This document shows, in pieces, positions 28,572 through 44,062 of a stretch of DNA of 64,000 nt (positions are counted from its first letter, which is position 1; each line of letters starts with the position of its first letter). Below the pieces are notes generated by a model. That model saw only the letters and a list, made by a program, of their open reading frames with translations, made no database searches and was not told the origin of the DNA. This DNA comes from a virus. The translations under genes were made by a program, and so were the position numbers. The stretch covers positions 1-64,000 of the IMG/VR virus record IMGVR_UViG_3300007513_000013. One strand, given 5' to 3'.

Positions 28572-29231
28572 ATGAAGCTTACAAAAGATACATTAAGACA
28601 ACTTGTGCTAGAAGAGCTAGAAGCTGCTGACAAGAAAGCTGCTGAACACGCAGAACTTCATCTAAAATCGGATGACACAGGCGCGTCAACGCTTAAGACG
28701 CGTGGTAAAAAAACGGATTGGAAAACCAACAAATCACCTTATGATAAATCGGCATTGGTCAGCGGAGAAATGGGGGTCTCGTACGACTCCAAAAAAGGAG
28801 AAAAAAGCTATTCAAGAACACATATTCGTACACCCGAAGCAGAAAAAGCTCTTCAAAATGAGCCTTGGGAAGTCTACGAGACCGACCCATCCGGAAAAAC
28901 TTATCACGGTTATCAAGAACCAGAAACAACGATGCATCGAACTGCGGAAAGCTTAAACAAATCTCAACTTAAACAAATGATTGAAGAAGAGTTCGAACAT
29001 GCGACTGCACAACATCAAGAACATGGCGAAGGGGTAATGGCAAAGCGCCAACTACTTCAAATTGGAGAGTACTCAAAGATGTTGATGGAAATGCTAGAAG
29101 ATAACGACGAGCTTCCTAGTTGGGTACAAGCAAAACTCACAAAAGCAGCAGACTACATGGACACAGTATATCATTATATGAACGTGGAAAAGGTCTTGTG
29201 TGAAGGGGAACAAAGATTAGATGAAGAGTGA
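28572..29231 (+). CDS. packaged protein with two type A signals
   Basis: 219 aa. Leader MKLTKDTLRQLVLEELEAAD and a second copy near residue 130 (LNKSQLKQMIEEEFEHA). The C-terminal part AKRQLLQIGEYSKMLMEML ... ELPSWVQAKLTKAADYMDTV is a domain seen in virion proteins of marine T4-like phages. SD-less leader ACTAATTATAGTTATG. Confidence 0.65.
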   Translation: MKLTKDTLRQLVLEELEAADKKAAEHAELHLKSDDTGASTLKTRGKKTDWKTNKSPYDKSALVSGEMGVSYDSKKGEKSYSRTHIRTPEAEKALQNEPWEVYETDPSGKTYHGYQEPETTMHRTAESLNKSQLKQMIEEEFEHATAQHQEHGEGVMAKRQLLQIGEYSKMLMEMLEDNDELPSWVQAKLTKAADYMDTVYHYMNVEKVLCEGEQRLDEE

Positions 29232-31784: not shown

Positions 31785-31979
31785 ATGAAAGTAGGAAGTT
31801 TAGTAAGGCACATTTATTGGGGCGACAGGGCCTCCGGGCACGGCATTGTTGTAGAGAAAAAACAGAACACGGGAGAAAAGATCTACTATAGAATCAAGTG
31901 GGTGGGCGGGAATCAATCTGAATTTGACCAGTGGTTCCCCGAGAAAGAATTAGAGGTGGTCAGTGATGCAAATAGGTGA
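31785..31979 (+). CDS. SH3/KOW-like mini-protein
   Basis: 64 aa: MKVGSLVRHIYWGDRASG, HGIVVEKKQN, YRIKWVGG, LEVVSDANR end. Overlaps the next by exactly 14 bases. Confidence 0.72.
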   Translation: MKVGSLVRHIYWGDRASGHGIVVEKKQNTGEKIYYRIKWVGGNQSEFDQWFPEKELEVVSDANR

Positions 31980-32139
31980 TCTGGTGAGGGCTGTAAACTT
32001 GAGCTTGTTTGGCTGGAACTCAAGCGGTATTGTGATTGCCATATGTGGTCCAAAGTGGGTAAAGGTAGCGTGGTCTGATGGGATTATTTACGAAGAGCAC
32101 GTTGAGGATTTGGAAAGGATTAGCACTGCCCCCACTTAA
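31966..32139 (+). CDS. SH3/KOW-like mini-protein
   Basis: 57 aa: MQIGDLVRAVNLSLFGW, SGIVIAICG, VKVAWSDGII. Start lies inside the upstream gene's last codons. A run of 17 T follows its stop. Confidence 0.7.
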   Translation: MQIGDLVRAVNLSLFGWNSSGIVIAICGPKWVKVAWSDGIIYEEHVEDLERISTAPT

Positions 32140-32176
32140 TTTTTTTTTTTTTTTTTCCTGCGCGCGAGGGCAAATT

Positions 32177-32350
32177 ATGAAAGTTGGAGATCTAGTAAAG
32201 TTTGGACAGAACGATGCAATGGGCATTATTGTTGATATAAGCCCTAATTCTTATTTTGGCAATTCGGACTTGTATCATGTCAGATGGTTCGATGGTGTTA
32301 TGAACTCTCGATTCGACGTTGAACTGGAAGTTATCAGTGAAGGTCGGTGA
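32177..32350 (+). CDS. SH3/KOW-like mini-protein
   Basis: 57 aa: MKVGDLVKFGQNDAMGIIVD, YHVRWFDGVMNS, LEVISEGR end. The end overlaps the next start by 14 bases. Confidence 0.75.
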   Translation: MKVGDLVKFGQNDAMGIIVDISPNSYFGNSDLYHVRWFDGVMNSRFDVELEVISEGR

Positions 32351-32531
32351 TCTAGTGGCAATAAAATCCAACATGGGAGATGACATGGGAAAAGTATATT
32401 GCACAGGAATATACTTAGGCACCAGCAACACTTGGAAAGATTGGCATCTTGTGTGCGATATGAAAGGCCGACAAATGAAGTGGGATGAGCCTTTTTGGAT
32501 ACTGGAGGTAATCAGTGAGAGCCAAACCTAA
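32337..32531 (+). CDS. SH3/KOW-like mini-protein
   Basis: 64 aa from GTG: VKVGDLVAIKSNMGDDMG, GIYLGTSN, WHLVCDMKG, LEVISESQT. GTG sits in the interlocked 14-base junction. Confidence 0.72.
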   Translation: MKVGDLVAIKSNMGDDMGKVYCTGIYLGTSNTWKDWHLVCDMKGRQMKWDEPFWILEVISESQT

Positions 32532-32688
32532 AGTTGGCGATCTTGTAGAGCATTTTCATGGCGCGCGCGGCATCGTTAAAGCCACTCGCGGAATTGACGT
32601 GGAAATTCATTGGATGGGGAGGCGCGCCCTAGTGGGCGACTCTTCATGGCACCGGCGCACTAGTGTCAAAGTGATATCAAGGGCTTAG
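32515..32688 (+). CDS. SH3/KOW-like mini-protein
   Basis: 57 aa from GTG: VRAKPKVGDLVEHFHG, ARGIVKATRG, VEIHWMGRRAL. 17-base overlap with upstream gene. Contains a GGCGCGCC site. Confidence 0.7.
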   Translation: MRAKPKVGDLVEHFHGARGIVKATRGIDVEIHWMGRRALVGDSSWHRRTSVKVISRA

Positions 32689-32717
32689 AAAAAACATGAA
32701 AAAAAACATGAAAAAGC

Positions 32718-32746
32718 TTGACATTTTCTTCAACGTGTGAGATAAT
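32718..32746 (+). promoter_or_regulatory. early-type promoter
   Basis: TTGACA, 17 bp, TGAGATAAT. Confidence 0.75.
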
Positions 32747-32772
32747 TATAATGAACGATGGATGGAGAAAAC

Positions 32773-33420
32773 ATGAATCCTACGATGCTCGAAAGATTGA
32801 CTGCTGCTCTTGAAAAGAAACAGCTTCTAACCGATTGGGAACATGGCTTTATTGAGAGTTTGCAAGAGCAATTCAATAAACGTGGAAGGCTCTCTGCGCG
32901 TCAGGTTGAGATCCTTGATCGCATTGAGAGAGAAAAGCTTTCTGAGAGCGCAGTCGCAAAAGCGAAACGCTGGTTCAAAGAGTACAGCGATGAACATCGC
33001 CGCACTGCGCGCATATGCGCCGAATATTATAGGCACACTGGATACTTTCAGACGCTTGTTCACCTCATCCTGAATACAGAAAACCATATCCCCACTGAGA
33101 AGCAGTACAAAAAGATGTGCGAAAACAAGTACGCCAAAAAAGTGCTGGCCGAACATGATGTTGCGCCAAAGTACCCTGTTGGTTCGCTGGTTGAAGTACG
33201 CGCCACTGCTGATTGGTCCCACCGACGCTCCGCAAATGGTATGCCTTGTGTTGTCATTTCATCGGGAGGCACAGTTAAGAGCGCAGCTAAGGGCGCGAAA
33301 CCATACAAGATTTTGCCCTTTGGCTCCGCGAAGCCCATTGATTGCGAAGAGCGACACATAAAAAAGTGCAAGAATCCAAAAAAAGCTAAAAAAGTTGTTG
33401 ACAACGATATACCATTCTGA
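32773..33420 (+). CDS. early protein, unknown
   Basis: 215 aa. N-terminal LTDWEHGFIESLQEQF, LSARQVEILDRIE resembles a short helical domain found in several phage early proteins; a later SH3-like piece YPVGSLVEVRATADW and basic tail with KKVVDNDIPF. ATG at 32773 has GGAG 6 bases upstream; ATG at 32758 is possible. DNA or RNA binding is plausible but unproven. Confidence 0.62.
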   Translation: MNPTMLERLTAALEKKQLLTDWEHGFIESLQEQFNKRGRLSARQVEILDRIEREKLSESAVAKAKRWFKEYSDEHRRTARICAEYYRHTGYFQTLVHLILNTENHIPTEKQYKKMCENKYAKKVLAEHDVAPKYPVGSLVEVRATADWSHRRSANGMPCVVISSGGTVKSAAKGAKPYKILPFGSAKPIDCEERHIKKCKNPKKAKKVVDNDIPF

Positions 33421-33426
33421 TATAAT
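33398..33426 (+). promoter_or_regulatory. promoter for zinc-knuckle gene
   Basis: TTGACA, 17 bp, TATAAT, formed partly by the end of the upstream gene. Confidence 0.75.
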
Positions 33427-33459
33427 AGTGGCAGGACTTAAGAAACAAAGGAGAAAAAC

Positions 33460-34161
33460 TTGAGTTGGAACAACACAGTTAGGTGTTCTCATTGTTGGCA
33501 AAACGGCCACAACAAGGCCGGATGCACAGAATTACGAGAAAAGATGCAAAAACGCATGGATGCTGATCCGGACGACTGGCGCGCCCAAGAATACTTTAGA
33601 AAGAAACAGCGAAGCAGAAGCCGCACGTGTTCTTATTGCAATCATTCCGGGCACAACCGAAAGACATGCAAAGAGTTGCAACATGCAAAGAACGTAACGC
33701 GAGAAAAAGCCGCTGAATGGCGAGTCATGGCATTGGAGCATCTTAGTCGCATCGGCGTTGGTGTTGGGGCGCTCGTAACCTACCAAACTTGGGAAAATGC
33801 GCCAAGACCAGCGATGGTTACAGGGATCGACTGGAATAGTCTAGATCACAGGTATATCCACAGCGGTTGGCACGAAACAAACTCTTTTAGGATCGGCAAC
33901 TTGGACAACTCCAATGTTCGGGCGGCTGATTACACCGTGGCTTTGCCAAAAGATGAGACAAACAAGGTGACAGCCGAAAACTACGATCCTTATCGGCCTG
34001 TTGTCATCGTCGGACCTCTTTCAGCGGAGTCGGTGAAAAGCCAAGTTCCAGCGAATTGGCTGACGGGCGAAAGCGCGCTCACTAACATTTTTGACAAGGA
34101 TACCAGACCACACACTGTTAGTGATTGGGTAGAATTCCAGAATTTTTATCAAGAAAAGTAA
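33460..34161 (+). CDS. double CCHC zinc-knuckle protein
   Basis: 233 aa from TTG with AAAGGAG. Two knuckles: CSHCWQNGHNKAGC (residues about 9-22) and CSYCNHSGHNRKTC (57-70), a C-x2-C-x4-H-x4-C pattern that binds single-stranded nucleic acid. The C-terminal region (VGALVTYQTWENAPRPAM) may be SH3-like. Early expression suggests an RNA- or DNA-directed host-takeover role. Confidence 0.72.
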   Translation: MSWNNTVRCSHCWQNGHNKAGCTELREKMQKRMDADPDDWRAQEYFRKKQRSRSRTCSYCNHSGHNRKTCKELQHAKNVTREKAAEWRVMALEHLSRIGVGVGALVTYQTWENAPRPAMVTGIDWNSLDHRYIHSGWHETNSFRIGNLDNSNVRAADYTVALPKDETNKVTAENYDPYRPVVIVGPLSAESVKSQVPANWLTGESALTNIFDKDTRPHTVSDWVEFQNFYQEK

Positions 34162-34169
34162 AAAAAACC

Positions 34170-34198
34170 TTGACAGATTGAAGAATCTGTGAGATAAT
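34170..34198 (+). promoter_or_regulatory. early-type promoter for MoxR gene
   Basis: TTGACA, 17 bp, TGAGATAAT. Confidence 0.75.
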
Positions 34199-34239
34199 TA
34201 CTATAGAAACAATGAGAAAAGCCGGGAGGCACACACAAC

Positions 34240-35301
34240 ATGGCAATTGACTTCAAAACTTTTATCGAAATTGTTCCACACGTAACCACGATTCGCAAGC
34301 CTGTTTTGCTTCGTGGTCGCCATGGCATCGGCAAATCTCAGGTTGTTTATCAGTACGCTGAAAACGCTGATATGCCAGTGGTAGAGCGACGTGCAAGTCA
34401 AATGACTGAAGGCGATCTGCTCGGCCTCCCCTCTACTGATGGTCAGATCACGTCTTGGAATCCTCCCGATTGGTACAAGGCTGCATGTGATCAGGGCGTT
34501 GTGCTCTTTCTCGATGAGGTTGACCGTGCGACCACTGAGGTCCGTCAAGGTATCTTTGAGTTGACCGATAGCCGCAAGCTGAATGGTCATCACTTGCACC
34601 CTGATACTTTCATCTTTGCTGCTGTCAATGGCGGCGACCATGGCGATCAGTATCAGGTTGGCGAAATGGACCCGGCAGAACTTGATCGTTGGACCGTGTT
34701 TGACATTGAACCAACCATTGAGGATTGGCTGACTTGGGCAAAAGACAAGGTTGACACGGTTGTTTGGGACTTTATTAACAACAATCACAGTCACTTAGAG
34801 CACACGAGCGAATTCGAGCCTAACAAGGTATATCCTTCGCGCCGTTCGTGGGAACGCTTGGATTCATGTCTGGTTAGTGCGGATCTTTTGAAAGAGGCTA
34901 GCCCAACACTGTTCAACCTTGCCACTGGGTTCGTTGGTTTCGAGGCGGCTGTCTCTTTCAACGATTACGTTGCAAATTACGACCGTCAGGTCACAATTGA
35001 AGATGTTTTGGATGCTGGTGCTCTTGACAAAGTGAAAGATTGGGACATCAACCAGCACAACGCTTTGATTGAGAAGATGGAGGCAAAAGACGTCTTCAAA
35101 GAGGATCTGAATAAAACTCGGGTCCAGAACCTCGCGAATTATTTCGTGATTCTACCTTCTGAGGTCGCCATGAAGCTATGGACCGTTCTCGGTCAGGGCA
35201 AGATGGAGAACACGGTTGCTCTCCATCAGGCCAAAGCTAGCGATGGCAAGTCCGTCAGTGCTCACATGGTTGAAATTCTAACTGGTACTGAGCAGGGCTA
35301 G
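34240..35301 (+). CDS. MoxR-family AAA+ ATPase
   Basis: 353 aa. Walker A GRHGIGKS at 26-33, Walker B VLFLDE at 88-93, and AAVNGGD sensor region. MoxR ATPases work with VWA proteins to remodel or insert metals in targets; the next gene is exactly such a partner. GC content and codon use look higher than in neighbouring SH3-like genes. Ends at a strong terminator. Confidence 0.85.
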   Translation: MAIDFKTFIEIVPHVTTIRKPVLLRGRHGIGKSQVVYQYAENADMPVVERRASQMTEGDLLGLPSTDGQITSWNPPDWYKAACDQGVVLFLDEVDRATTEVRQGIFELTDSRKLNGHHLHPDTFIFAAVNGGDHGDQYQVGEMDPAELDRWTVFDIEPTIEDWLTWAKDKVDTVVWDFINNNHSHLEHTSEFEPNKVYPSRRSWERLDSCLVSADLLKEASPTLFNLATGFVGFEAAVSFNDYVANYDRQVTIEDVLDAGALDKVKDWDINQHNALIEKMEAKDVFKEDLNKTRVQNLANYFVILPSEVAMKLWTVLGQGKMENTVALHQAKASDGKSVSAHMVEILTGTEQG

Positions 35302-35308
35302 TAAAAGC

Positions 35309-35348
35309 GCCCTGATGTTGAAAAAAAACAACATCAGGGCATTTTCTT
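35309..35348 (+). terminator. rho-independent terminator
   Basis: 12-bp perfect stem GCCCTGATGTTG/CAACATCAGGGC with an A8 loop, followed by ATTTTCTT. It ends the MoxR transcript just before the next promoter. Confidence 0.85.
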
Positions 35349-35349
35349 C

Positions 35350-35378
35350 TTGACATTTTACTCAGCCTGTGAGATAAT
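35350..35378 (+). promoter_or_regulatory. early-type promoter, leaderless
   Basis: TTGACA, 17 bp, TGAGATAAT; ATG at 35385 lies 6 bases after the -10. Confidence 0.75.
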
Positions 35379-35384
35379 TATATC

Positions 35385-36602
35385 ATGGTAAACGAAACAA
35401 AGAAAGAATTCAACCTCAACATGCACACGGCGCGCCTTCTTTTTGATGAGCCGTTCTTTGCAGCGTTGAGTCGTCGCATCAACAAGATTGCGACCACTTC
35501 AATTCCCACAGCCGGTGTTCGTGTGAACCCAGACACAGCGCAGTTTGAGATGGTTTACAACCCTGAGTTCTTTGAGGGACTTGAAGATAATCACCGCACT
35601 GGAGTACTGAAACACGAGTTCTATCATCTTGTTTTTGAGCACGTTACAAGTCGTAAGCCGGATGGTGTTGACCACAGGACTTGGAATTACGCTACGGATC
35701 TTGCAATCAATTCGCATCTTTCTAGCGAACTTCCTGAGACTGCTTTGATTCCCGGCGCAGGTCCGTTTGAAAGTTATCCGTCAGGACTTAGCGCAGAAGC
35801 CTATTTACTTAAGCTGCAAGAGGATGAACAGTTTCAAGAGGGGAAAGGTAAAGGGGATGCTGGAAATGAGAATACAGAATCTGGCGCGAGTGACGATAGT
35901 GCCGGTGGTGAGCAATTTGATTCTCACGAGGGCTGGGGTGAATCAAATTCTACAACTAGCGAGATCGCTAAGGAAAGACTCAAAGATTACATAAAAAAGG
36001 CAGCCGAAGAAGCGCAGCAAGGTAGCGGTTGGGGTTCTGTACCTGCGGCATGCCGACGCGATATTATGGCGCGCCTTGCCACTTTTGTTGATTGGCGCTC
36101 TGTGCTACGTTATTTCGTAAAGACCTCACAGCGCGCAGCCAAACGCTCTACAGTGCGTAAGATTAATAAGCGTTTTCCTTATGTCCATCCGGGCAAGAAA
36201 GTGAAACGTCAGGCTCGCATTGCAATTAGCATTGATCAGTCTGGATCGGTTTCGGATGGCATGCTTGAAGCCTTCTTTAGCGAGTTGAACAAGCTGGCGA
36301 AACATGCTACCTTTACCGTTGTTCCGTTTGATACTCGCGTTGAAGAGGCTTTGGTCTATGAGTGGAAAAAGGGCGAGAACCATAAAACTGAGCGAGTTAT
36401 GTGCGGAGGCACGGATTTTGATGCTCCAACGGCATATGTCAATAAGAACAACTTTGATGGTCACATCGTTTTGACTGATATGATGGCACCGAAACCAAAG
36501 GCTAGTAATTGCCAGCGTATGTGGATGACTACAAGGGCTTGTGCGGCGCATCCATACTTTAAGACAAATGAACGTGTTATCGCAGTTGACATAAAAGAGT
36601 AA
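35385..36602 (+). CDS. VWA-like protein with N-terminal metallopeptidase domain (DUF2201-like)
   Basis: 405 aa. HEFYH at 77-81 in a KHEFYHLVFEH helix is an HExxH zinc site; C-terminal VWA metal-site motif DQSGS at 284-288 with later GGTDFDAP and LTDM. A low-complexity acidic linker lies between. It pairs with the MoxR ATPase upstream, as in RavA-ViaA-type systems. No Shine-Dalgarno; leaderless transcript likely. Confidence 0.82.
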   Translation: MVNETKKEFNLNMHTARLLFDEPFFAALSRRINKIATTSIPTAGVRVNPDTAQFEMVYNPEFFEGLEDNHRTGVLKHEFYHLVFEHVTSRKPDGVDHRTWNYATDLAINSHLSSELPETALIPGAGPFESYPSGLSAEAYLLKLQEDEQFQEGKGKGDAGNENTESGASDDSAGGEQFDSHEGWGESNSTTSEIAKERLKDYIKKAAEEAQQGSGWGSVPAACRRDIMARLATFVDWRSVLRYFVKTSQRAAKRSTVRKINKRFPYVHPGKKVKRQARIAISIDQSGSVSDGMLEAFFSELNKLAKHATFTVVPFDTRVEEALVYEWKKGENHKTERVMCGGTDFDAPTAYVNKNNFDGHIVLTDMMAPKPKASNCQRMWMTTRACAAHPYFKTNERVIAVDIKE

Positions 36603-36619
36603 AAAAGTGAAGTTTTTAC

Positions 36620-36648
36620 TTGACAAAACTGGTTTATTTTGAGATAAT
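36620..36648 (+). promoter_or_regulatory. early-type promoter, leaderless
   Basis: TTGACA, 17 bp, TGAGATAAT; GTG at 36655 is 6 bases downstream. Confidence 0.72.
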
Positions 36649-36654
36649 ATAAGA

Positions 36655-36759
36655 GTGGTAGAAGCAATCGCAATATTTTACTTGGTATTTACAATAGCTT
36701 TTATAGCTTGCGATGGCTTAAACCTTATGTTTAAAAACCCGAAGAGTGGGAGAAAATAA
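36655..36759 (+). CDS. 34-aa membrane peptide, leaderless
   Basis: GTG start at the expected transcription start. One hydrophobic helix (AIAIFYLVFTIAFIA) and a basic tail NPKSGRK. Its TAA shares a base with the next ATG. Supported by promoter position rather than homology. Confidence 0.55.
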   Translation: MVEAIAIFYLVFTIAFIACDGLNLMFKNPKSGRK

Positions 36760-37265
36760 TGCAAGTTAATGATATTCTTATGAAAAAGTGGTGTTTCGGA
36801 ATGGGACGCAGCAAGGTTCGCGAAGAGGCAACAATGGGCGCAAACGGGGAACTTCAAACGTTCCGCACCTATCCCAAGTATCGCACTATTGTTTTCAAGG
36901 TTGAGAAAGCAACAAAGAAGGGCAACCAATGGCATGTTGAGGGAAAACAATATTCTTCTTTGAATGGCAAGCCCAAGACAACTAAGTTGGTGCTCGATGA
37001 AAAGAAAGTGGGCAAGTATAAGTTGTTCAGCGTACCGGGACAGAAGCGCCCATTCTTGCAGATTGAGAACCCCGGCACTCTAACAGAAGAGGGTTTGCCG
37101 CCGGTTGGTAGTCTGATTACTATCAACAAAAAGCATGCCATTGTAACTGCTGTAGGTCGAAATGAGTTGACAGTATTTACAAACAACAAAATGCAAACTA
37201 TCACATGCAAACCGGGCACAATCAAGTGGCACTCGGACAAAATTCTAACCAGCGTTGTTGGTTGA
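36759..37265 (+). CDS. early protein with SH3-like C-terminal part
   Basis: 168 aa. N-terminal half basic and beta-rich; from about residue 115 VGSLITINKKHAIVTAVG resembles the SH3/KOW-like family. Overlaps upstream stop by one base. Function unknown. Confidence 0.65.
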   Translation: MQVNDILMKKWCFGMGRSKVREEATMGANGELQTFRTYPKYRTIVFKVEKATKKGNQWHVEGKQYSSLNGKPKTTKLVLDEKKVGKYKLFSVPGQKRPFLQIENPGTLTEEGLPPVGSLITINKKHAIVTAVGRNELTVFTNNKMQTITCKPGTIKWHSDKILTSVVG

Positions 37266-37275
37266 GGGAGGAAAA

Positions 37276-37335
37276 GTGTTTGAATTACTGGTACTTGCAG
37301 CATTATCATATATTTGCTGGAAACTTAACAATTAA
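37276..37335 (+). CDS. 19-aa membrane peptide
   Basis: GTG with GGGAGG upstream; FELLVLAALSYICWKLNN, one short hydrophobic helix. Tiny but with a good ribosome site. Confidence 0.4.
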   Translation: MFELLVLAALSYICWKLNN

Positions 37336-37346
37336 CTAAAAACTTC

Positions 37347-37375
37347 TTGACAAAACGTTCTCTGTGTGAGATAAT
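37347..37375 (+). promoter_or_regulatory. early-type promoter
   Basis: TTGACA, 17 bp, TGAGATAAT, followed by ACATATAGAAAC, a leader shared with promoters at 40392, 41898 and 42256. Confidence 0.75.
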
Positions 37376-37407
37376 ACATATAGAAACTTAGAGAAAGGGC
37401 AAATAAC

Positions 37408-37575
37408 ATGCAAGCTGGCGATTTAGTGGGACATAGATTTGAAAATGGTTTAGGCGTGATATTGAAAACACCAGAACAAACGAACAACGGTGATTATTTG
37501 GTACATTTTACAAACGACCGCAAGCCAAGATGGTATAGAGAGAAATACTTGGAGCTAATCAATGTCGCATCCTGA
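37408..37575 (+). CDS. SH3/KOW-like mini-protein
   Basis: 55 aa: MQAGDLVGHRFENGLGVILK, YLVHFTNDRK, WYREKYLELI. Overlaps next gene by 14 bases. Confidence 0.7.
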   Translation: MQAGDLVGHRFENGLGVILKTPEQTNNGDYLVHFTNDRKPRWYREKYLELINVAS

Positions 37576-37798
37576 AAACAATGAAAAGAACAGGTTCGAA
37601 CTAGCCACAAACGTTGTTGACACTTGGTCACTGGAGGATTTACGCGAATATGTGATACGCGAGCTTGAATCCGACTACCGTGCTGACCAATCATATTTTG
37701 AAGAAGAGTTCGACAACTTCGAAGACTCTTTCGAGTGGTCCGAAGAACTTCAGGCAACTATTGAAAAGCCGATTGACACTTCTCACATTGGAGCATAA
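37562..37798 (+). CDS. acidic early protein, unknown
   Basis: 78 aa. WSLEDLREYVIRELESDY and FEEEFDNFEDSFEW; strongly acidic, helical. Its start lies in the last codons of the SH3-like gene. Confidence 0.62.
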   Translation: MSHPENNEKNRFELATNVVDTWSLEDLREYVIRELESDYRADQSYFEEEFDNFEDSFEWSEELQATIEKPIDTSHIGA

Positions 37799-37801
37799 AC
37801 A

Positions 37802-38185
37802 ATGGGATACCGATCAGAAGTAGCACTCGCAGTTAGCAAAGACATTATGCCATATTTTCTTGGCGTATTGGCAAAAGAACCAGCGGCGCGCCCCATGATA
37901 TTCAAAGGCTGCGACCATCTTGATCAAGATTATAACGGAGAGGGCACATTGCTCGTTGTCTGGCATGAAATAAAATGGTATGACACTTATCCAGAGATCA
38001 AGGCAATTCAGGACTTTATTGAAGGTTGTGAATTGGATGATGCCGAACACATGGGACTCAAAGACATTGAATATCCAAGCGAGCATGTACGATTCGTGCG
38101 CCTCGGTGAGGACTTTGATGACTGTGAGACGAAGGGCACATTGCACGATTGGGATATTGGCATGAGCAGGGCACTGAGCTATTGA
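37802..38185 (+). CDS. MGYRSEV-type phage protein
   Basis: 127 aa. MGYRSEVALAVSKD, HEIKWYDTYPEIKAI, VRFVRLGEDFDD: a recognisable conserved phage early protein of unknown function. Ends in an overlap with the next SH3-like gene. Confidence 0.7.
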   Translation: MGYRSEVALAVSKDIMPYFLGVLAKEPAARPMIFKGCDHLDQDYNGEGTLLVVWHEIKWYDTYPEIKAIQDFIEGCELDDAEHMGLKDIEYPSEHVRFVRLGEDFDDCETKGTLHDWDIGMSRALSY

Positions 38186-38379
38186 AAGTCGGTGATTTAG
38201 TTAAAGTTACAGCATCAGGTTTGCGCCCACAAATTGATGGTATTGCATTGATCACAAGAGTGGAAGAACGGAAAGATTCATCAGGTGCTATAGTTCAATA
38301 TTGGGCACAAATGGCGGAATCAGGCCACTTGTACTGGTTTCGAGAAGGGCAGATAGAGGTTATAAGTGAAAGTCTGTAA
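38182..38379 (+). CDS. SH3/KOW-like mini-protein
   Basis: 65 aa from TTG: MKVGDLVKVTASGLRPQIDG, ALITRVEER, YWFREGQIEVISESL. Overlaps the lipoprotein gene by 14 bases. Confidence 0.68.
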   Translation: MKVGDLVKVTASGLRPQIDGIALITRVEERKDSSGAIVQYWAQMAESGHLYWFREGQIEVISESL

Positions 38380-38635
38380 AGTAATTATAGTTTTGATAAT
38401 GGTTGTTGTTTCTGGGTGTGTTTTTCATGTAGAAGAAGAGCCTATTCCTTGTGGGTATGATGAACAACCTTATTATGAGGTGCCTTTATACTGCGATGTG
38501 AACCCGTGGACATATAAAGGCGAGTGCTGCACTTGGATAGTACAAGACTACTACAGCGAGTGCATTGAATCATGGTGCTATAATGAATACGTGTGCGGCT
38601 GGATGGTTAACCAGCGCTCCTGTTATCCCATATAA
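38366..38635 (+). CDS. Cys-rich lipoprotein
   Basis: 89 aa. Signal peptide VKVCKVIIVLIMVVVSGC with lipobox VSGC, then a Tyr/Trp/Cys-rich mature part with about ten cysteines (ECCTWIVQDYY, WCYNEYVC). Its start reuses the same GTGAAAGTC junction as SH3-like genes. Early lipoproteins of this type in phages may block superinfection. Periplasmic or outer-membrane. Confidence 0.65.
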   Translation: MKVCKVIIVLIMVVVSGCVFHVEEEPIPCGYDEQPYYEVPLYCDVNPWTYKGECCTWIVQDYYSECIESWCYNEYVCGWMVNQRSCYPI

Positions 38636-38650
38636 AACAAAAGAAACTTC

Positions 38651-38679
38651 TTGACAAAACATCGTTTGTGTGAGATAAT
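38651..38679 (+). promoter_or_regulatory. early-type promoter, leaderless
   Basis: TTGACA, 17 bp, TGAGATAAT; ATG at 38686 lies 6 bases later. Confidence 0.75.
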
Positions 38680-38685
38680 ATAAGC

Positions 38686-38865
38686 ATGAAAGTTAAAAGA
38701 CTAGTTGAAGTTCTCACAACGATGGACGTGCCAGCCTCTCGAAAAGAACTTACGCCATCAAACGTACGATGGCTACTTCGAAACCTGCGAGTACGCAACG
38801 GGCAACATCCCGATATTAATGAAACAATTTCAGATCTTAAGGAGATTGCACGTGCAAGTCGGTGA
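38686..38865 (+). CDS. small basic protein, leaderless
   Basis: 59 aa: MKVKRLVEVLTTMDVPASRK, NVRWLLRNLRVRN. Helix-turn-helix-like spacing is possible. Ends ARASR in the 14-base junction. Confidence 0.55.
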   Translation: MKVKRLVEVLTTMDVPASRKELTPSNVRWLLRNLRVRNGQHPDINETISDLKEIARASR

Positions 38866-39040
38866 TTTAGTTGAGCTTTCGGCTTGTGGTAAGAAACTTA
38901 AAAGTTTCAAGGGGTTACATGGGCATCATGGAATTGTGATCAAGCCTTCTTCAAGGTACGGCCTCTATCAAATACATTGGTTTGGAAAGCCTGTTAATTT
39001 TATGAAACGAAAAGATATAAAACACGTAAAAAACACTTGA
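38852..39040 (+). CDS. SH3/KOW-like mini-protein
   Basis: 62 aa from GTG, with AAGGAG 7 bases upstream: VQVGDLVELSACGKK, HHGIVIKPSSR, YQIHWFGKP. Its stop overlaps the next -35 box. Confidence 0.72.
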   Translation: MQVGDLVELSACGKKLKSFKGLHGHHGIVIKPSSRYGLYQIHWFGKPVNFMKRKDIKHVKNT

Positions 39041-39065
39041 CAAACCCGCCAATCTATGAGATAAT
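39037..39065 (+). promoter_or_regulatory. early-type promoter, leaderless
   Basis: TTGACA, 17 bp, TGAGATAAT; ATG at 39072 lies 6 bases later. Confidence 0.75.
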
Positions 39066-39071
39066 ATTAAC

Positions 39072-39245
39072 ATGATACGAGAACTTCAAATTGGAGATTT
39101 AATTCAGACCAGAATGGGCTGGGTGGGAATTATTGTCGCACAAGACATACAAACCCAAACCGGTCAGCATTGGTGGAGAATTTACAACGCTGCCCAACAA
39201 CGATTCAGAATTGTTGGAGAGTGGGAGTTAGAGCGCATAAAATGA
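39072..39245 (+). CDS. SH3/KOW-like mini-protein, leaderless
   Basis: 57 aa: MIRELQIGDLIQTRMG, WVGIIVAQD, WWRIYNAAQ. Overlaps next ATG by 4 bases. Confidence 0.7.
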   Translation: MIRELQIGDLIQTRMGWVGIIVAQDIQTQTGQHWWRIYNAAQQRFRIVGEWELERIK

Positions 39246-39424
39246 AAGTCGGTGATATAGTAAAACATACTCGCGGCCTGTTAGGGATTATTGTTGAAGT
39301 TCCGGCAGAAGATGACTACTGGGGCAAAACTGCTGTAATTCAATGGACCGATGGACCGATGTACAGAGCAGAGCACACAGAAGAAGAATTTGAAGTTCTG
39401 GAGGTAATCAGTGCAAGTCGGTGA
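39242..39424 (+). CDS. SH3/KOW-like mini-protein
   Basis: 60 aa: MKVGDIVKHTRGLLGIIVEV, VIQWTDGPMY, LEVISASR end. 14-base overlap with next. Confidence 0.74.
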   Translation: MKVGDIVKHTRGLLGIIVEVPAEDDYWGKTAVIQWTDGPMYRAEHTEEEFEVLEVISASR

Positions 39425-39599
39425 TTTGGTTAAAGAAAGAAGCAAAATGAATCGCATCTGTTCGTTGGGAGTGATACTAAAAATACAAGAATGCCGCGCC
39501 GCCAAATGTGAATGTAAGGCAGAAGAATATTTAGTTCATTTCTTTGATGATGATGACAAGTGCTGGATGAGCAGTGGGTTTTTAGAGGTTGTCGGTTGA
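39411..39599 (+). CDS. SH3/KOW-like mini-protein
   Basis: 62 aa from GTG: VQVGDLVKERSKMN, LGVILKIQEC, YLVHFFDDDD. Has a Cys-rich loop CRAAKCEC. Confidence 0.7.
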   Translation: MQVGDLVKERSKMNRICSLGVILKIQECRAAKCECKAEEYLVHFFDDDDKCWMSSGFLEVVG

Positions 39600-39607
39600 G
39601 CAGTAGA

Positions 39608-39808
39608 ATGCCCAAAGTTGGTGATTTGTTGATTCAGAAGGTTGACGGACAAAACCATGTTGGTTTTATTTATAGCCTCTCTTTTCCTAAAGCAAGGGTT
39701 TTTGTGCGATGGGCGGGAAAAGCACCAAATTGTTATAACAGTGAATACGGCTATTCACCAACCAATATCCACAATCAACCCCACGTATTTAGTTTGGTGA
39801 AAACATGA
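39608..39808 (+). CDS. SH3/KOW-like mini-protein
   Basis: 66 aa: MPKVGDLLIQKVDGQNHVG, ARVFVRWAGK. 4-base overlap with next. Confidence 0.66.
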   Translation: MPKVGDLLIQKVDGQNHVGFIYSLSFPKARVFVRWAGKAPNCYNSEYGYSPTNIHNQPHVFSLVKT

Positions 39809-39993
39809 AAGTTGGCGATATGATTAGAGAAAAAGAGTATCCCGACGATTCGTGCGGAGTGATTGTGCATGTTGGAGACTTGCGAACAAAAAAACCATAC
39901 AAAGTCTGGTGTCCCTTTTGGCAGGGCATTATGGACTTTGATAAGAATTACGTTCAAGAGGTGTGCGAGGTCGTTAGCAGTGCAAGTAGGTGA
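39805..39993 (+). CDS. SH3/KOW-like mini-protein
   Basis: 62 aa: MKVGDMIREKEYPDDSCGVI, YKVWCPFWQG, CEVVSSASR end. 14-base overlap with next. Confidence 0.72.
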   Translation: MKVGDMIREKEYPDDSCGVIVHVGDLRTKKPYKVWCPFWQGIMDFDKNYVQEVCEVVSSASR

Positions 39994-40144
39994 TTTAGTT
40001 AGACAAAAACACACCCCGCAAGGCGTTTGGTTAGTTACCAAGATAGATACTATTGATGGCTGGTTTAAGGCTCAAAGCTGTGGATATCATAGCGCATGGT
40101 TGAGAACAAACGAATACGAGGTCTTGAGTCGTGGCAATAGATAA
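39980..40144 (+). CDS. SH3/KOW-like mini-protein
   Basis: 54 aa from GTG: VQVGDLVRQKHTPQG, WLVTKIDT, YEVLSRGNR end. 14-base overlap with next. Confidence 0.7.
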   Translation: MQVGDLVRQKHTPQGVWLVTKIDTIDGWFKAQSCGYHSAWLRTNEYEVLSRGNR

Positions 40145-40358
40145 GAGCAAACTAAAGGAGCCAATTAGCACAGAAGAGAATCGCGAGCTATTTGCAGAGC
40201 TTCTTGTTAATGATATGTCAACGAAAGAAATTCGAGAGAGAGTAAAAGAGGACATAATGAAGTCTTTCAGAAACTCAAGGACAACATTTCTCAGGGAGTA
40301 TTGGAAGTATTACGAAGAGACTTATGGGCACTGTCCGTTCAGGCTCAATAGTGACTAA
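40131..40358 (+). CDS. small helical protein, unknown
   Basis: 75 aa from GTG: ENRELFAELLVNDMSTKEIR, FLREYWKYYEETYG. Starts in the same kind of 14-base junction but is not an SH3-like protein, so the junction links unrelated cassettes too. Confidence 0.6.
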   Translation: MAIDKSKLKEPISTEENRELFAELLVNDMSTKEIRERVKEDIMKSFRNSRTTFLREYWKYYEETYGHCPFRLNSD

Positions 40359-40391
40359 AAAGTAGCTCGCGAAATTTTTTCACTTTAATAC

Positions 40392-40420
40392 TTGACAAAC
40401 ACGTCACCATATGAGATAAT
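40392..40420 (+). promoter_or_regulatory. early-type promoter
   Basis: TTGACA, 17 bp, TGAGATAAT, then GTATATAGAAAC leader. Confidence 0.75.
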
Positions 40421-40451
40421 GTATATAGAAACAGTGGCAAAAGGAGCCAAA

Positions 40452-40622
40452 ATGTTAGATATAGAACGAGCAAAGATTCAATCCTTTCTCGACAACGCAG
40501 AAACGCCCGAAGAAACTGAGCTTGCAGAAGCTTTGCTTGAGGGTTATGATAGTGGTGAACTTGAGGTTCTGACAGATACAGCAACGGGCGAATTGCTCTT
40601 TGCTTTGAAGAGGGTAAACTAA
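40452..40622 (+). CDS. small acidic protein, unknown
   Basis: 56 aa with AAGGAG: RAKIQSFLDNAETPEETELA and a strand-turn-strand LEVLTDTATGELLFAL. One-base overlap with next. Confidence 0.6.
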   Translation: MLDIERAKIQSFLDNAETPEETELAEALLEGYDSGELEVLTDTATGELLFALKRVN

Positions 40623-40834
40623 TGACTGATATTAGTCAAATTATTTTAGATGTACTGGATTCACATCCAGACTTAGCCGGGAACCATGCCAACGCTGAAG
40701 TAGCAGAGCTATGTGAACAAAAACTACTAAACGCTTCGCTGCATCAGTTGGCAAGCGTTATTGGTGGTACTGTAGAAGTAGATAATGACGGTCAAGCTGT
40801 TATCTACACAAATATGCGCCTTGGAGGGCTATAA
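40622..40834 (+). CDS. small protein, unknown
   Basis: 70 aa: SQIILDVLDSHPDLAGNH, ASVIGGTVEVDNDGQAVIYT. Translationally coupled to the gene upstream. Confidence 0.58.
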   Translation: MTDISQIILDVLDSHPDLAGNHANAEVAELCEQKLLNASLHQLASVIGGTVEVDNDGQAVIYTNMRLGGL

Positions 40835-40837
40835 TTT

Positions 40838-40993
40838 ATGACGAGAGCAGAAGAACTAAAAATCCTTAAAGACTTCATTGACAAGAATGGAGTAACTCAG
40901 CTTCCCCCAGATGAAAGGGGGCCAGAAGCATTCATTAGCGCATGGGCAAAGCCTAAAGCTAAGAGAGGGAGAAAGAAGAAAGTTGCAAAGTGA
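40838..40993 (+). CDS. small basic-tailed protein
   Basis: 51 aa: MTRAEELKILKDFIDKNGVT, AWAKPKAKRGRKKKVAK. GGAGG about 10 bases upstream. The Lys/Arg tail suggests nucleic-acid binding. Confidence 0.55.
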   Translation: MTRAEELKILKDFIDKNGVTQLPPDERGPEAFISAWAKPKAKRGRKKKVAK

Positions 40994-41219
40994 AGTAAAA
41001 GAAATACTGATTGACTTGGTTAATTATTATAATACAATGGGCACGCAATCTGATCCGGGCATTGAAGCCTTTCAATCAGTTGCACAACGCGCATCAAAAG
41101 CATTAGAACGCGATGCTGCTAACAAACGTTTAGGTTCAGCAGATGTTGATCCATATTCGTTTGATGTAGTTGGTACGCTCAAAGAAGTAGCTACCGTTAA
41201 ACACGAATCAGAACTTTAA
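40983..41219 (+). CDS. small helical protein, unknown
   Basis: 78 aa from TTG inside the previous gene's end: MQSEVKEILIDLVNYYNTMG, FQSVAQRASKALERDA. Start uncertain. Confidence 0.5.
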   Translation: MQSEVKEILIDLVNYYNTMGTQSDPGIEAFQSVAQRASKALERDAANKRLGSADVDPYSFDVVGTLKEVATVKHESEL

Positions 41220-41388
41220 TTTTTTTATTTTTTTGGTTTTAGATAGAGGTAGCAAAGGTTATAAGTAGATAAAGGCGTTGATTGATTAGGTGGAAGTGGA
41301 AATAGGTGGTTAGAGTAGTACTATAAAGCCTATATACGCGAACACCGCTTGTCAAGCCTTTATTTATTTTTTTTTTATTTTTATTTGC

Positions 41389-41417
41389 TTGACAAGCGTA
41401 CCGTCGCATGGTATGAT
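41389..41417 (+). promoter_or_regulatory. promoter in T-rich intergenic region
   Basis: TTGACA, 17 bp, TATGAT. The gap 41220-41443 is otherwise A/T-rich with poly-T runs and no gene. Confidence 0.65.
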
Positions 41418-41443
41418 GGTATTAACAAGTAGGAGGATTGTTT

Positions 41444-41527
41444 ATGACGCTAGGAATTATTGGTTATATAGCGGCTGTGGCTGCATCGGCAACGATGTTC
41501 GCATGGTCGAACCCTAAAAAGTTTTAA
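41444..41527 (+). CDS. 27-aa membrane peptide
   Basis: ATG with an ideal AGGAGG site. MTLGIIGYIAAVAASATMFA then WSNPKKF: one helix and a basic tail NPKKF, like the NPKSGRK tail of the peptide at 36655. Function unknown. Confidence 0.55.
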   Translation: MTLGIIGYIAAVAASATMFAWSNPKKF

Positions 41528-41582
41528 AACAGGCTATTTTTAAAGCCTAATGATATCGCGGAGTTAGTTTAACTTTCGCTTA

Positions 41583-41774
41583 GTGGAGATAGAATTGAAA
41601 TTATTTTCTACATTGCCTCTCGACAATTTAATATTGCTTTCAATATTGCCCTTTGGTACGGGCTATTTATTGGACGAGGAAGACAAGCCAGACGAGAATT
41701 CTCTCATGTTTGCCATGGCATTAATAGCGGCTGACAGTCGCGCAACCATTCCAACCATAACCTACAGCAATTAA
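41583..41774 (+). CDS. possible small hydrophobic protein
   Basis: 63 aa from GTG: LPLDNLILLSILPFGTGYLL. No Shine-Dalgarno seen, so the call rests on an open frame in a coding-dense region. Confidence 0.3.
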   Translation: MEIELKLFSTLPLDNLILLSILPFGTGYLLDEEDKPDENSLMFAMALIAADSRATIPTITYSN

Positions 41775-41788
41775 TATCGAGGGCAGCA

Positions 41789-41920
41789 ATGTATAATTCA
41801 GACGAGTCAGTGATCACGGGTATGGATATCCATCCAATCGTCAAGAAAATGACAGTCAAGAAGGTTAAAAAAAGATTGAAAAAGCGAAAGAAAAAGCTTG
41901 ACAAACGGCGCAAAATTTGA
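41789..41920 (+). CDS. small basic protein
   Basis: 43 aa; Lys/Arg-rich C-terminal half (VKKVKKRLKKRKKKLDKRRK) that overlaps the next promoter. GAGGG upstream. Plausible nucleic-acid binding peptide. Confidence 0.4.
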   Translation: MYNSDESVITGMDIHPIVKKMTVKKVKKRLKKRKKKLDKRRKI

Positions 41921-41926
41921 GATAAT
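41898..41926 (+). promoter_or_regulatory. early-type promoter
   Basis: TTGACA, 17 bp, TGAGATAAT, then GTATATAGAAAC leader. Confidence 0.75.
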
Positions 41927-42865: not shown

Positions 42866-44062
42866 ATGAAAATCACTAAATCAATATTACAAAGAATCAT
42901 ACAAGAAGAATTGAGCTTAACCTTGAAAGAAGCGTTTTGGCCGTTCGGCGTACGCCTAGGCGATATCGTAGAGCCTGCAGCGCAGAGTGTCGCGCGGTCA
43001 GACCCGGCATATACAGCAGACGCCGCGGCCAACATATATGATCGAAACATGCAACTGTTGCGAACAAATCTAGGAAAAGGCTACGGTCGACATCGACTGG
43101 GAATTGGACCAGAATTTGCCGCACCGCCGCTGCAGCAGGGAGACTTTATTGATTTAGACGGTGATGGCGAAAACGATTCTGCAACAATATTGCGCCTTGC
43201 CTTAAAACACCACTTAGAAGATGATGACGCGGCGATTAACACGGTACCGGCATACGAAGCCGATCCGTTAACAGCTGGCGGAGCGCTGCTAGGAGACTAT
43301 TTAGAGGAAACAAAACATATGAAAATCACAAAATCAATATTACAAAGAGTTATACAAGAAGAACTACAGGCAGTACTGCAGGAAGAAAATTTTACACCTG
43401 CGGACTTTGGCCAAGAGCAGATGACGCACGTGGCACCGGTTACGCAGGGTTCAAGTACGTTCGTTCCAGTAGGCATTGAAGACGAAAGTACCCGCACATC
43501 GTACCCTGTGAGCAAGACCCCGATGAGCCGTATTGACCGCCGCGAGCCTGGTAGTGTCGATCTTAAGCCCTCTGAAGAGGCGCGCAGAGACTTTGTCACC
43601 GGATCCACGATTGGAGTGGTCGGTGAAGCGCTTTCATTCGAGCAAATTGTACAAGAAGAATATGATATGCTAATGCAAGAAAAAGAAGAAAAGCTAGTGA
43701 CCCCAGCAAAAAGTCCGAAGAAGGGATTCACAAAAGACAAGAAAGTCACAGTAAAGGGCGAATTCGGTGGCAAGAAAGTAGTAACGTTACCAGGAAAAAA
43801 ATATGATCCCGGTAAATTTCGCGATGATGTTAAGATAGTCCACACGGGCCCAAAAAAGCCCAAGTATACGCCAAGAGTAACAGTAGGCGGCTTGGTCAAG
43901 CGCGACATAGAAGATGTATATGGAAAAGAAGATAAGAAAGAGAAGAAAAAAAGCAATCTAAAAGTAAGCAAGAAGCCGACAGATAAAGATACTGCAGCTC
44001 TGCGTAAACTAAAGAAACAGAAAGAGAAAAACATCGATGCTAAAGCGCGGAAGAAAAAATAA
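42866..44062 (+). CDS. packaged polyprotein-like protein, three type A signals
   Basis: 398 aa. Leader MKITKSILQRIIQEELSLTL; a near-identical second leader at residue 152 (MKITKSILQRVIQEELQAVL, own ATG at 43319); and FEQIVQEEYDMLMQ near 255. The tail is very basic (KKEKKKSNLKVSKK...ARKKK). It looks like two cargo genes fused in frame, or one polyprotein cut at several I/L-x-E sites. After the TAA the frame stays open 20 more codons. Confidence 0.62.
   Translation: MKITKSILQRIIQEELSLTLKEAFWPFGVRLGDIVEPAAQSVARSDPAYTADAAANIYDRNMQLLRTNLGKGYGRHRLGIGPEFAAPPLQQGDFIDLDGDGENDSATILRLALKHHLEDDDAAINTVPAYEADPLTAGGALLGDYLEETKHMKITKSILQRVIQEELQAVLQEENFTPADFGQEQMTHVAPVTQGSSTFVPVGIEDESTRTSYPVSKTPMSRIDRREPGSVDLKPSEEARRDFVTGSTIGVVGEALSFEQIVQEEYDMLMQEKEEKLVTPAKSPKKGFTKDKKVTVKGEFGGKKVVTLPGKKYDPGKFRDDVKIVHTGPKKPKYTPRVTVGGLVKRDIEDVYGKEDKKEKKKSNLKVSKKPTDKDTAALRKLKKQKEKNIDAKARKKK

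Follow-up and report, generated by a model that had tools for sequence, protein, structure and literature searches.

A protein-coding connector with a 14-base gene overlap joins apparently exchangeable SH3-like cassettes in viral genomes

Introduction

Why should a run of small genes in one viral genome overlap their neighbors by precisely the same number of bases? The window analyzed here comprises bases 1-64000 of the 118,471-base IMG/VR virus record IMGVR_UViG_3300007513_000013. Between positions 31785 and 40358, it carries chains of small genes, many of which encode SH3-like proteins, and the start of one gene often lies within the end of the preceding one. The original prediction, made from the letters of the window, was that a stop/start junction of 14 bases serves as a standard connector on which cassettes can be swapped with translational coupling preserved. 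Our analysis of this window and of related viral loci indicates that the genes probably form an array of cassettes linked through a protein-coding connector, with exchange at the junctions by general recombination.

The 14-base overlap in the window and in related loci

All eight starts for which a 14-base overlap had been claimed (31966, 32337, 37562, 38366, 38852, 39411, 39980, and 40131) overlap the upstream gene by exactly 14 bases. The claim that most of these junctions share one sequence was an overstatement, as just three of them (38852, 39411, and 39980) carry GTGCAAGTCGGTGATTTAG with one mismatch allowed. [KQ][VI]GDL is encoded at five of the eight; the genes that begin at the other three junctions (37562, 38366, and 40131) lack KVGD and do not belong to the SH3-like family. 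The junction had also been said to join a lipoprotein and a helical gene, and this was seen at 38366, where the downstream gene is lipoprotein-like, and at 38852, where the helical gene lies upstream. Other overlaps in the window are of 4 bases (38182, 39242, and 39805) and of 17 bases (32515).

The overlap was analyzed across 243 loci of IMG/VR viral records (2.32 Mb), which were retrieved through an ATPase neighbor and through junction patterns and contain 2341 SH3-like genes. An overlap of exactly 14 bases was observed in 921 of 1228 distinct close pairs of SH3-like genes, whereas among the non-SH3 pairs of the same loci, which served as control, it was observed in only 4 of 195 (4 bases in 27 and 1 base in 21), indicating that the 14-base overlap is beyond chance. 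Selection bias was checked in both parts of the set. Loci fetched by the ATPase showed the 14-base overlap in 41 of 95 pairs (10 bases in 26 and 4 bases in 17), and pattern-fetched loci, after removal of the junctions matching the pattern, showed it in 321 of 449. The non-SH3 pairs follow the pattern of prokaryotes, in which, over 2.66 million gene pairs, every spacing beyond the range of -8 to +6 is at most one tenth as frequent as -4 (PMC10666635).

The strict junction pattern was found in only four contigs among 84,980 genomes, all of them metagenome-assembled genomes of mixed phyla, so that no host can be assigned. Three tblastn queries against cultured phage records found no SH3 relatives. 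Salmonella phage Det7 and its relatives contain a match of 19 bases, which runs antisense to annotated genes and is hence probably due to chance.

Anatomy of the connector

The typical upstream SH3-like protein ends in L-E-V-I-S-E-S-R-stop, encoded by TTG GAG GTN ATC AGT GAA AGT CGG TGA. Read one base on, the same letters give GGAGGT, a short spacer, and GTG AAA GTC GGT GAT, that is, start-K-V-G-D. Thus, the Shine-Dalgarno (SD) sequence and start of the next gene lie inside the upstream tail, and the upstream stop lies inside the Gly-Asp codons of the next gene. Among 546 distinct 14-base junctions, whose profile is TTGGAGGTNATCA|RTG|AAAGTCGGTGAYTT, the bases G, A, G, and T at -10, -9, -8, and -6 were conserved at 89-94%, and GGTGA at 97-100%.

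The overlap is 14 bases long because GGTGAY, encoding the Gly-Asp of KVGD, supplies the first stop (TGA) in that frame. The other frame is first closed by NTGA, giving an overlap of 4, or by TAG at an overlap of 10 (CAAGTAG/CAAATAG), which arises when codon 2 is CAA or CGA and codon 3 is GTA or ATA. In loci with at least four close pairs, the main overlap was 14 in 134 loci, 10 in five, and 4 in five. Therefore, the standard part is the SH3 tail with its SD, spacer, and start, together with a stop drawn from the KVGD codons of the next gene, and not the number 14 itself.

A second connector, TTGGAGGTAAT|ATGCAAATAGG, was observed in the other frame in a minority of loci (L016, L019, L020, L160, L198, L184, and L236); it has an overlap of 10 and is interchangeable with ATGAAA, which has an overlap of 4.

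Selection on the embedded start signal and translation

Next, we analyzed codon usage at the embedded SD. Glu in the terminal E[VIL] was encoded by GAG in 437 of 457 genes (96%) with a 14-base SH3 neighbor downstream and in 61 of 65 (94%) with a non-SH3 candidate downstream, compared with 41 of 87 (47%) without an overlapping start downstream and 324 of 680 Glu codons (48%) inside SH3 genes. ATG or GTG precedes [KQ]xGDL in 808 of the 815 cases with an SH3 gene ending 14 bases downstream. The embedded SD and start are under clear synonymous selection. A tail of the form S[EADG][SGNA]R was present in 57% of genes with a 14-base junction versus 2% of those without an overlapping start, and it amounts to a shadow cast by the start of the next gene.

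These observations bear on programmed +1 frameshifting at CGG-TGA-T, by which neighboring SH3 proteins would be fused like beads on a string. The downstream frame is indeed +1 relative to the upstream stop. However, such a fusion needs neither the preserved start codon nor an SD held at start-codon distance by synonymous selection, and a lipoprotein and a membrane protein also occur in the chains, so that we regard frameshifting as highly improbable. Initiation would instead take place at the embedded site. The downstream gene has a ribosome-binding site together with the overlap, as is expected of translationally coupled pairs, and coupling across the junction is plausible from its layout and from the selection on the embedded SD and start, which speak for it only indirectly.

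Cassette exchange at the junction

The partners of SH3-like genes were compared between loci, with genes from different loci treated as orthologs at an identity of 65% or more. In 380 comparisons, the downstream partner differed in 330 and was the same in 50, and in 269 of the 330 the 14-base overlap was present on both sides. Outside the chains, the backbone ATPase was followed by a VWA-like neighbor in 63 of 71 loci. The claim of swappable cassettes on a standard connector is thus upheld by the 269 comparisons in which the overlap was kept with a new partner, and by the unrelated genes that dock at the same place. The original prediction had treated relatives with unlinked genes or with variable overlaps as signs of a coincidence of related sequences; the genes proved to be unlinked in relatives, but the overlap was kept.

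DNA identity in 265 different-partner pairs was ~0.75 in the shared gene and ~0.9 in the junction; by position, it was 0.7-0.9 up to +15, fell to 0.37 at +20 and to ~0.3 by +25, and then remained at 0.26-0.30. Isolated matches of 130-330 bases with at least 90% identity had all four ends at junctions in 52 of 81 cases. We also made the comparison that had been proposed together with the connector, using 45 distinct cassette indels whose flanks were at least 80% identical. As predicted, breakpoints fell at the junction: 33 of the 45 were centered at -10 to +20 of an SH3 start, compared with 4.2 for random placement (maximum 11 in 2000). At most junction events, the flanking alignments overlap by typically 12-40 bases, meaning that matching junction sequence is present on both sides. 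In the pair L039 and L041, whose flanks are 99.5% identical over 8386 bases and 100% identical over 2609 bases, one cassette is present or absent between 20-base repeats of ATGAAAGTCGGTGATTTGGT, and the 14-base overlap is intact in both versions. Cassette swapping at the connector is well supported by these alignments.

Similar differences were observed for genes of the window. In L181, the ortholog (144-341) of the SH3 gene at 38182 precedes another SH3 gene where the window has the lipoprotein, and both exits are 14-base overlaps. In L010, the ortholog of the SH3 gene at 39805 (79% DNA identity) is entered by 14 bases instead of 4 and has a different downstream SH3 gene, and the homologue of the helical gene at 38686 has a different tail. 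The DUF7326-like gene at 40131 sits on a different SH3 gene by 14 bases in L181 and is free-standing in L010, with its own SD. The pair of SH3 and non-SH3 genes at connector 3 (start 37562) is also linked in L098.

Unrelated genes docked at the connector

Genes of other families were found at the same site. A GIY-YIG protein occupies the connector in L094, and a DUF2061 membrane protein does so in L073, where its first seven residues, VKVGDTL, lie outside the Pfam domain match. A gp32-like single-strand DNA-binding protein (L057, 8073-9089) begins with VKVGEYD directly after an upstream protein ending ..VISESR*; the N-termini differ in its relatives from L126 and L030. A small protein in L121 begins MKVGDLTDWLGF (MKVGDL-TDWLGF), and its relatives begin MNLARIKWEILDWLGY and similar. 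The proteins opening with VKVGDTL, VKVGEYD, and MKVGDL look like the products of genes that took over the start of an SH3 gene through exchange at the junction. Two further docked genes had no Pfam match, and their labels, MazG-like (KLVRD) and Smr-like, are an unconfirmed reading only.

Proposed mechanism and alternatives

In the proposed array, one cassette is one small gene, usually SH3/Tudor-like. Its 3' end (L-E-V-I-S) doubles as GGAGGT, spacer, and next RTG, and the K/Q-V-G-D codons of the following cassette hold the upstream TGA, so that any two cassettes joined in register at the connector would leave the upstream protein untruncated and keep the downstream ribosome-binding site. The conserved junctions of ~30 bases, with homology of roughly 12-40 bases, would be the sites at which cassettes are lost, gained, and exchanged. 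Phage-encoded or host general recombination would act on this homology, and viable products would retain the 14-base overlap; homologous or annealing recombination is presumably the cause of the exchange.

Plain tandem duplication, in which head-to-tail SH3 copies inherit the overlap from a first duplication and the junction has no role in exchange, would account for the paralogs all lying on one strand; copying carries the junction along, and 14 follows automatically from KVGD codons in one frame. However, neighbors joined by 14 bases are hardly more alike than non-neighbors (detectable similarity in 23 of 937 versus 14 of 937), the best SH3 relative lay in another locus for 2117 of 2201 genes and in the same locus for 84, and the docking site is also used by non-SH3 genes. 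The array can have originated by ancient duplication, but this does not account for its present order, and as a full explanation, duplication seems quite unlikely.

Several points weigh against the cassette array with exchange at its connector. There is some redundancy among loci of the same contig and among related contigs, and L039 and L041 are metagenome assemblies; redundancy and assembly errors weaken single counts but not the overall pattern. Local alignments run naturally through conserved motifs, by which the apparent breakpoints are sharpened, and 12 of the 45 cassette indels break elsewhere. Synonymous positions just downstream of the overlap vary, so that nothing points to a dedicated recombination site; coding and ribosome binding would account for the conservation of the junction, and the function of the proteins might by itself preserve the KVGD and LEVIS motifs. 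A RecA-family search (PF00154) of the possibly incomplete record gave no match, with a model that may miss UvsX. Furthermore, overlaps this long lowered termination-reinitiation relative to -4 or -1 in published tests (PMC12548453, PMC10666635). The embedded SD may therefore be an independent initiation site rather than a means of coupling, and it may simply permit independent initiation.

The indels that break outside SH3 junctions would suit ordinary phage mosaicism, in which illegitimate recombination occurs everywhere, selection spares the junctions at gene boundaries, and the conserved junction is coincidental. Mosaic phage genomes formed by illegitimate recombination are indeed general (PMC3203893). 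Nevertheless, matching junction sequence lies on both sides of most events, including the 20-base repeat of L039 and L041, and turnover is far higher in the SH3 chains than at the ATPase-VWA boundary. We therefore consider mosaicism by itself unlikely, although the least so of the alternatives. The short single genes, their one orientation, and their rapid reordering would suggest an integron-like system dedicated to site-specific cassette exchange, or else a diversity-generating retroelement. Yet neither a tyrosine recombinase (PF00589) nor a reverse transcriptase (PF00078) was matched in the 118,471-base record, which may be an incomplete fragment, and no inverted repeats were found at cassette junctions between 31000 and 40500; we give such systems very little credence. 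Exchange by general recombination at a protein-coding connector is the reading retained below.

Comparison with known systems

In cluster K mycobacteriophages, the start-associated sequence (SAS) and its extended form (ESAS) make up a short repeat that lies on one strand at many gene starts of the non-structural region, holds the SD, and sometimes includes the upstream stop; the 13-base SAS precedes the start codon by a few bases and is not a dual-coding overlap (PMC3203893). The connector is likewise a repeat containing a ribosome-binding site (GGAGGT, spacer, RTG) at hundreds of starts on the same strand, but unlike SAS it is coding sequence, both for the C-terminus of one particular protein family and for the N-terminus of the protein that follows. 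No match to the SAS consensus GGGATAGGAGCCC was found in the window with up to two mismatches.

T4-type phages reportedly carry promoter/stem-loop (PeSL) cassettes, described by Arbiol in 2010 and Comeau in 2014, in which a repeat at module borders is said to drive the shuffling of small genes. PeSLs are promoter-terminator motifs between genes. The connector is similarly associated with shuffling of adjacent genes, but it lies inside coding sequence and has no promoter or hairpin. In lambdoid phages, short conserved boundary sequences lie between exchangeable modules; here, unlike in those phages, one sequence joins dozens of interchangeable single genes. Functionally, arrays of small, single-orientation, reorderable genes are like integron cassettes, but no integrase or attC-like inverted repeats were found in our searches, and each cassette brings the start signal of its neighbor. 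As in the short -4, -1, and -8 overlaps of termination-reinitiation (PMC10666635, PMC12548453), start and stop are shared on one mRNA and translation is probably linked; unlike those, the -14 overlap is uncommon among prokaryotes at large, yet it makes up the majority here and has an embedded SD.

The connector thus resembles SAS, PeSL, and integron cassettes in its working but fails a defining test of each, and a literature search for arrays of this kind found no papers. Among known phage module boundaries, the novelty is a protein-coding, dual-frame connector for single-gene cassettes. Exchange joint, ribosome-binding site, start, and stop would be one coding sequence, which would keep a genome compact and expressible despite reshuffling of gene order. 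This gives a testable account of how large marine phages may build long runs of tiny genes, and GAGGTNATNARTGMAAGTNGGTGAYYT offers a handle for locating such arrays and new proteins docked in them. More tentatively, and with considerable doubt, we propose a repertoire system driven by recombination without an integrase, in which marine T4-like phages share a pool of thousands of SH3/Tudor mini-proteins and the connector was selected as an exchange joint. If so, any cassette, even a core gene such as that of the gp32-like protein, could be plugged in and expressed at once, and the 14-phase and 10/4-phase connector lineages would be separate compatibility groups.

SH3-like proteins

The SH3-like cassette proteins are usually ~60 residues long, and searches of the family against Pfam and PHROG gave no confident assignment. 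An AlphaFold2 model of the protein encoded at 39242 (predicted local distance difference test 84) showed five strands forming a small beta barrel. The best Foldseek matches were the UvrD/PcrA Tudor domain, the RNA-polymerase-interacting domains of Mfd and CarD, and KOW domains (probability near 1, E 0.1-0.8), with a template modeling score of 0.66-0.67 to the UvrD/PcrA Tudor; profile matches to Spt5/NusG were weak. The predicted fold is similar to known SH3/KOW/Tudor domains (UvrD/PcrA Tudor, Mfd, CarD, eS4, and Spt5 KOW), but unlike these, the cassette proteins are stand-alone, hyperdiverse, and without significant family assignment. The model suggests, as a lead and not as a result, that the proteins act at the ribosome or at RNA polymerase, and the SH3/Tudor proteins may have a host-directed role.

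Features of the window and its surroundings

Table 1. Cassette genes and connectors in the window (ORF, open reading frame)
Feature	Position	Strand	Basis
SH3-like cassette gene, LEVVSDANR tail	31785..31979	+	ORF, family profile and alignment
Connector 1: SD GAGGT, start ATG 31966, upstream stop TGA 31977-31979, 14-base overlap	31955..31984	+	
SH3-like cassette gene	31966..32139	+	
SH3-like cassette gene, LEVISEGR tail	32177..32350	+	
Connector 2: SD GGAAGT, start GTG 32337, 14-base overlap	32326..32355	+	
SH3-like cassette gene	32337..32531	+	
Connector variant: SD GGAGGT, start GTG 32515, 17-base overlap	32504..32536	+	
SH3-like cassette gene, chain end, tail without SD	32515..32688	+	
SH3-like cassette gene, LELINVAS tail	37408..37575	+	
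Connector 3: GGAGCT, start ATG 37562, 14-base overlap, SH3 to non-SH3 gene	37551..37580	+	
Non-SH3 gene (MSHPENNEKNR..), relatives in L098, L053, L010	37562..37798	+	
SH3-like cassette gene, entered via 4-base overlap (TTGA)	38182..38379	+	
Connector 4: AGAGGT, start GTG 38366, 14-base overlap, SH3 to lipoprotein	38355..38384	+	
Lipoprotein-like gene (VKVCKVIIVLIMVVVSGC..)	38366..38635	+	
Helical-type small gene, tail RASR* over SH3 start	38686..38865	+	
Connector 5: AAGGAG, start GTG 38852, 14-base overlap	38840..38870	+	
SH3-like cassette gene	38852..39040	+	
SH3-like cassette gene, chain head behind promoter-like site 39037, 4-base exit overlap	39072..39245	+	
SH3-like cassette gene, LEVISASR tail, SH3/Tudor-like predicted fold	39242..39424	+	
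Connector 6: GGAGGT, start GTG 39411, 14-base overlap	39400..39429	+	
SH3-like cassette gene	39411..39599	+	
SH3-like cassette gene, 4-base exit overlap	39608..39808	+	
SH3-like cassette gene	39805..39993	+	
Connector 7: GAGGT, start GTG 39980, 14-base overlap	39969..39998	+	
SH3-like cassette gene, YEVLSRGNR tail	39980..40144	+	
Connector 8: GAGGT, start GTG 40131, 14-base overlap, SH3 to DUF7326-like gene	40120..40149	+	
DUF7326-like gene (E 9.5e-4, below Pfam cut-off)	40131..40358	+	

The window showed large-phage features, namely a DNA polymerase, a DnaB-like helicase, and the large subunit of ribonucleotide reductase. The 18 SH3-like genes found all lie inside the window, and a search of the remaining 54 kb of the record found none. 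A run of 17 T at 32140-32156, without a clear hairpin, directly follows the stop of the SH3 gene at 31966 and separates two chains. Promoter-like sites of the form TTGACA-N14-TGAGATAAT, nine in number and nearly identical, were observed on the + strand only, within 32718-41926 and nowhere else in the window. They sit at the heads of cassette chains and of backbone genes, not in connectors, and some start codons lie just a few bases beyond the -10.

Elsewhere in the window, three tRNA genes (Arg-TCT, Leu-TAA, and Met-CAT) were found at the left end (43-1748), and a gene for a GroEL-type chaperonin at 22571-24142 (phrog_5725, E 4e-143). A similar short helical N-terminal motif (MKITKSILQRIIQEEL / MKLTKDTLRQLVLEEL) opens different proteins at 28572-29231 and 42866-44062, and the protein at 42866 contains it twice; perhaps, this motif is another N-terminal module shared in the phage.

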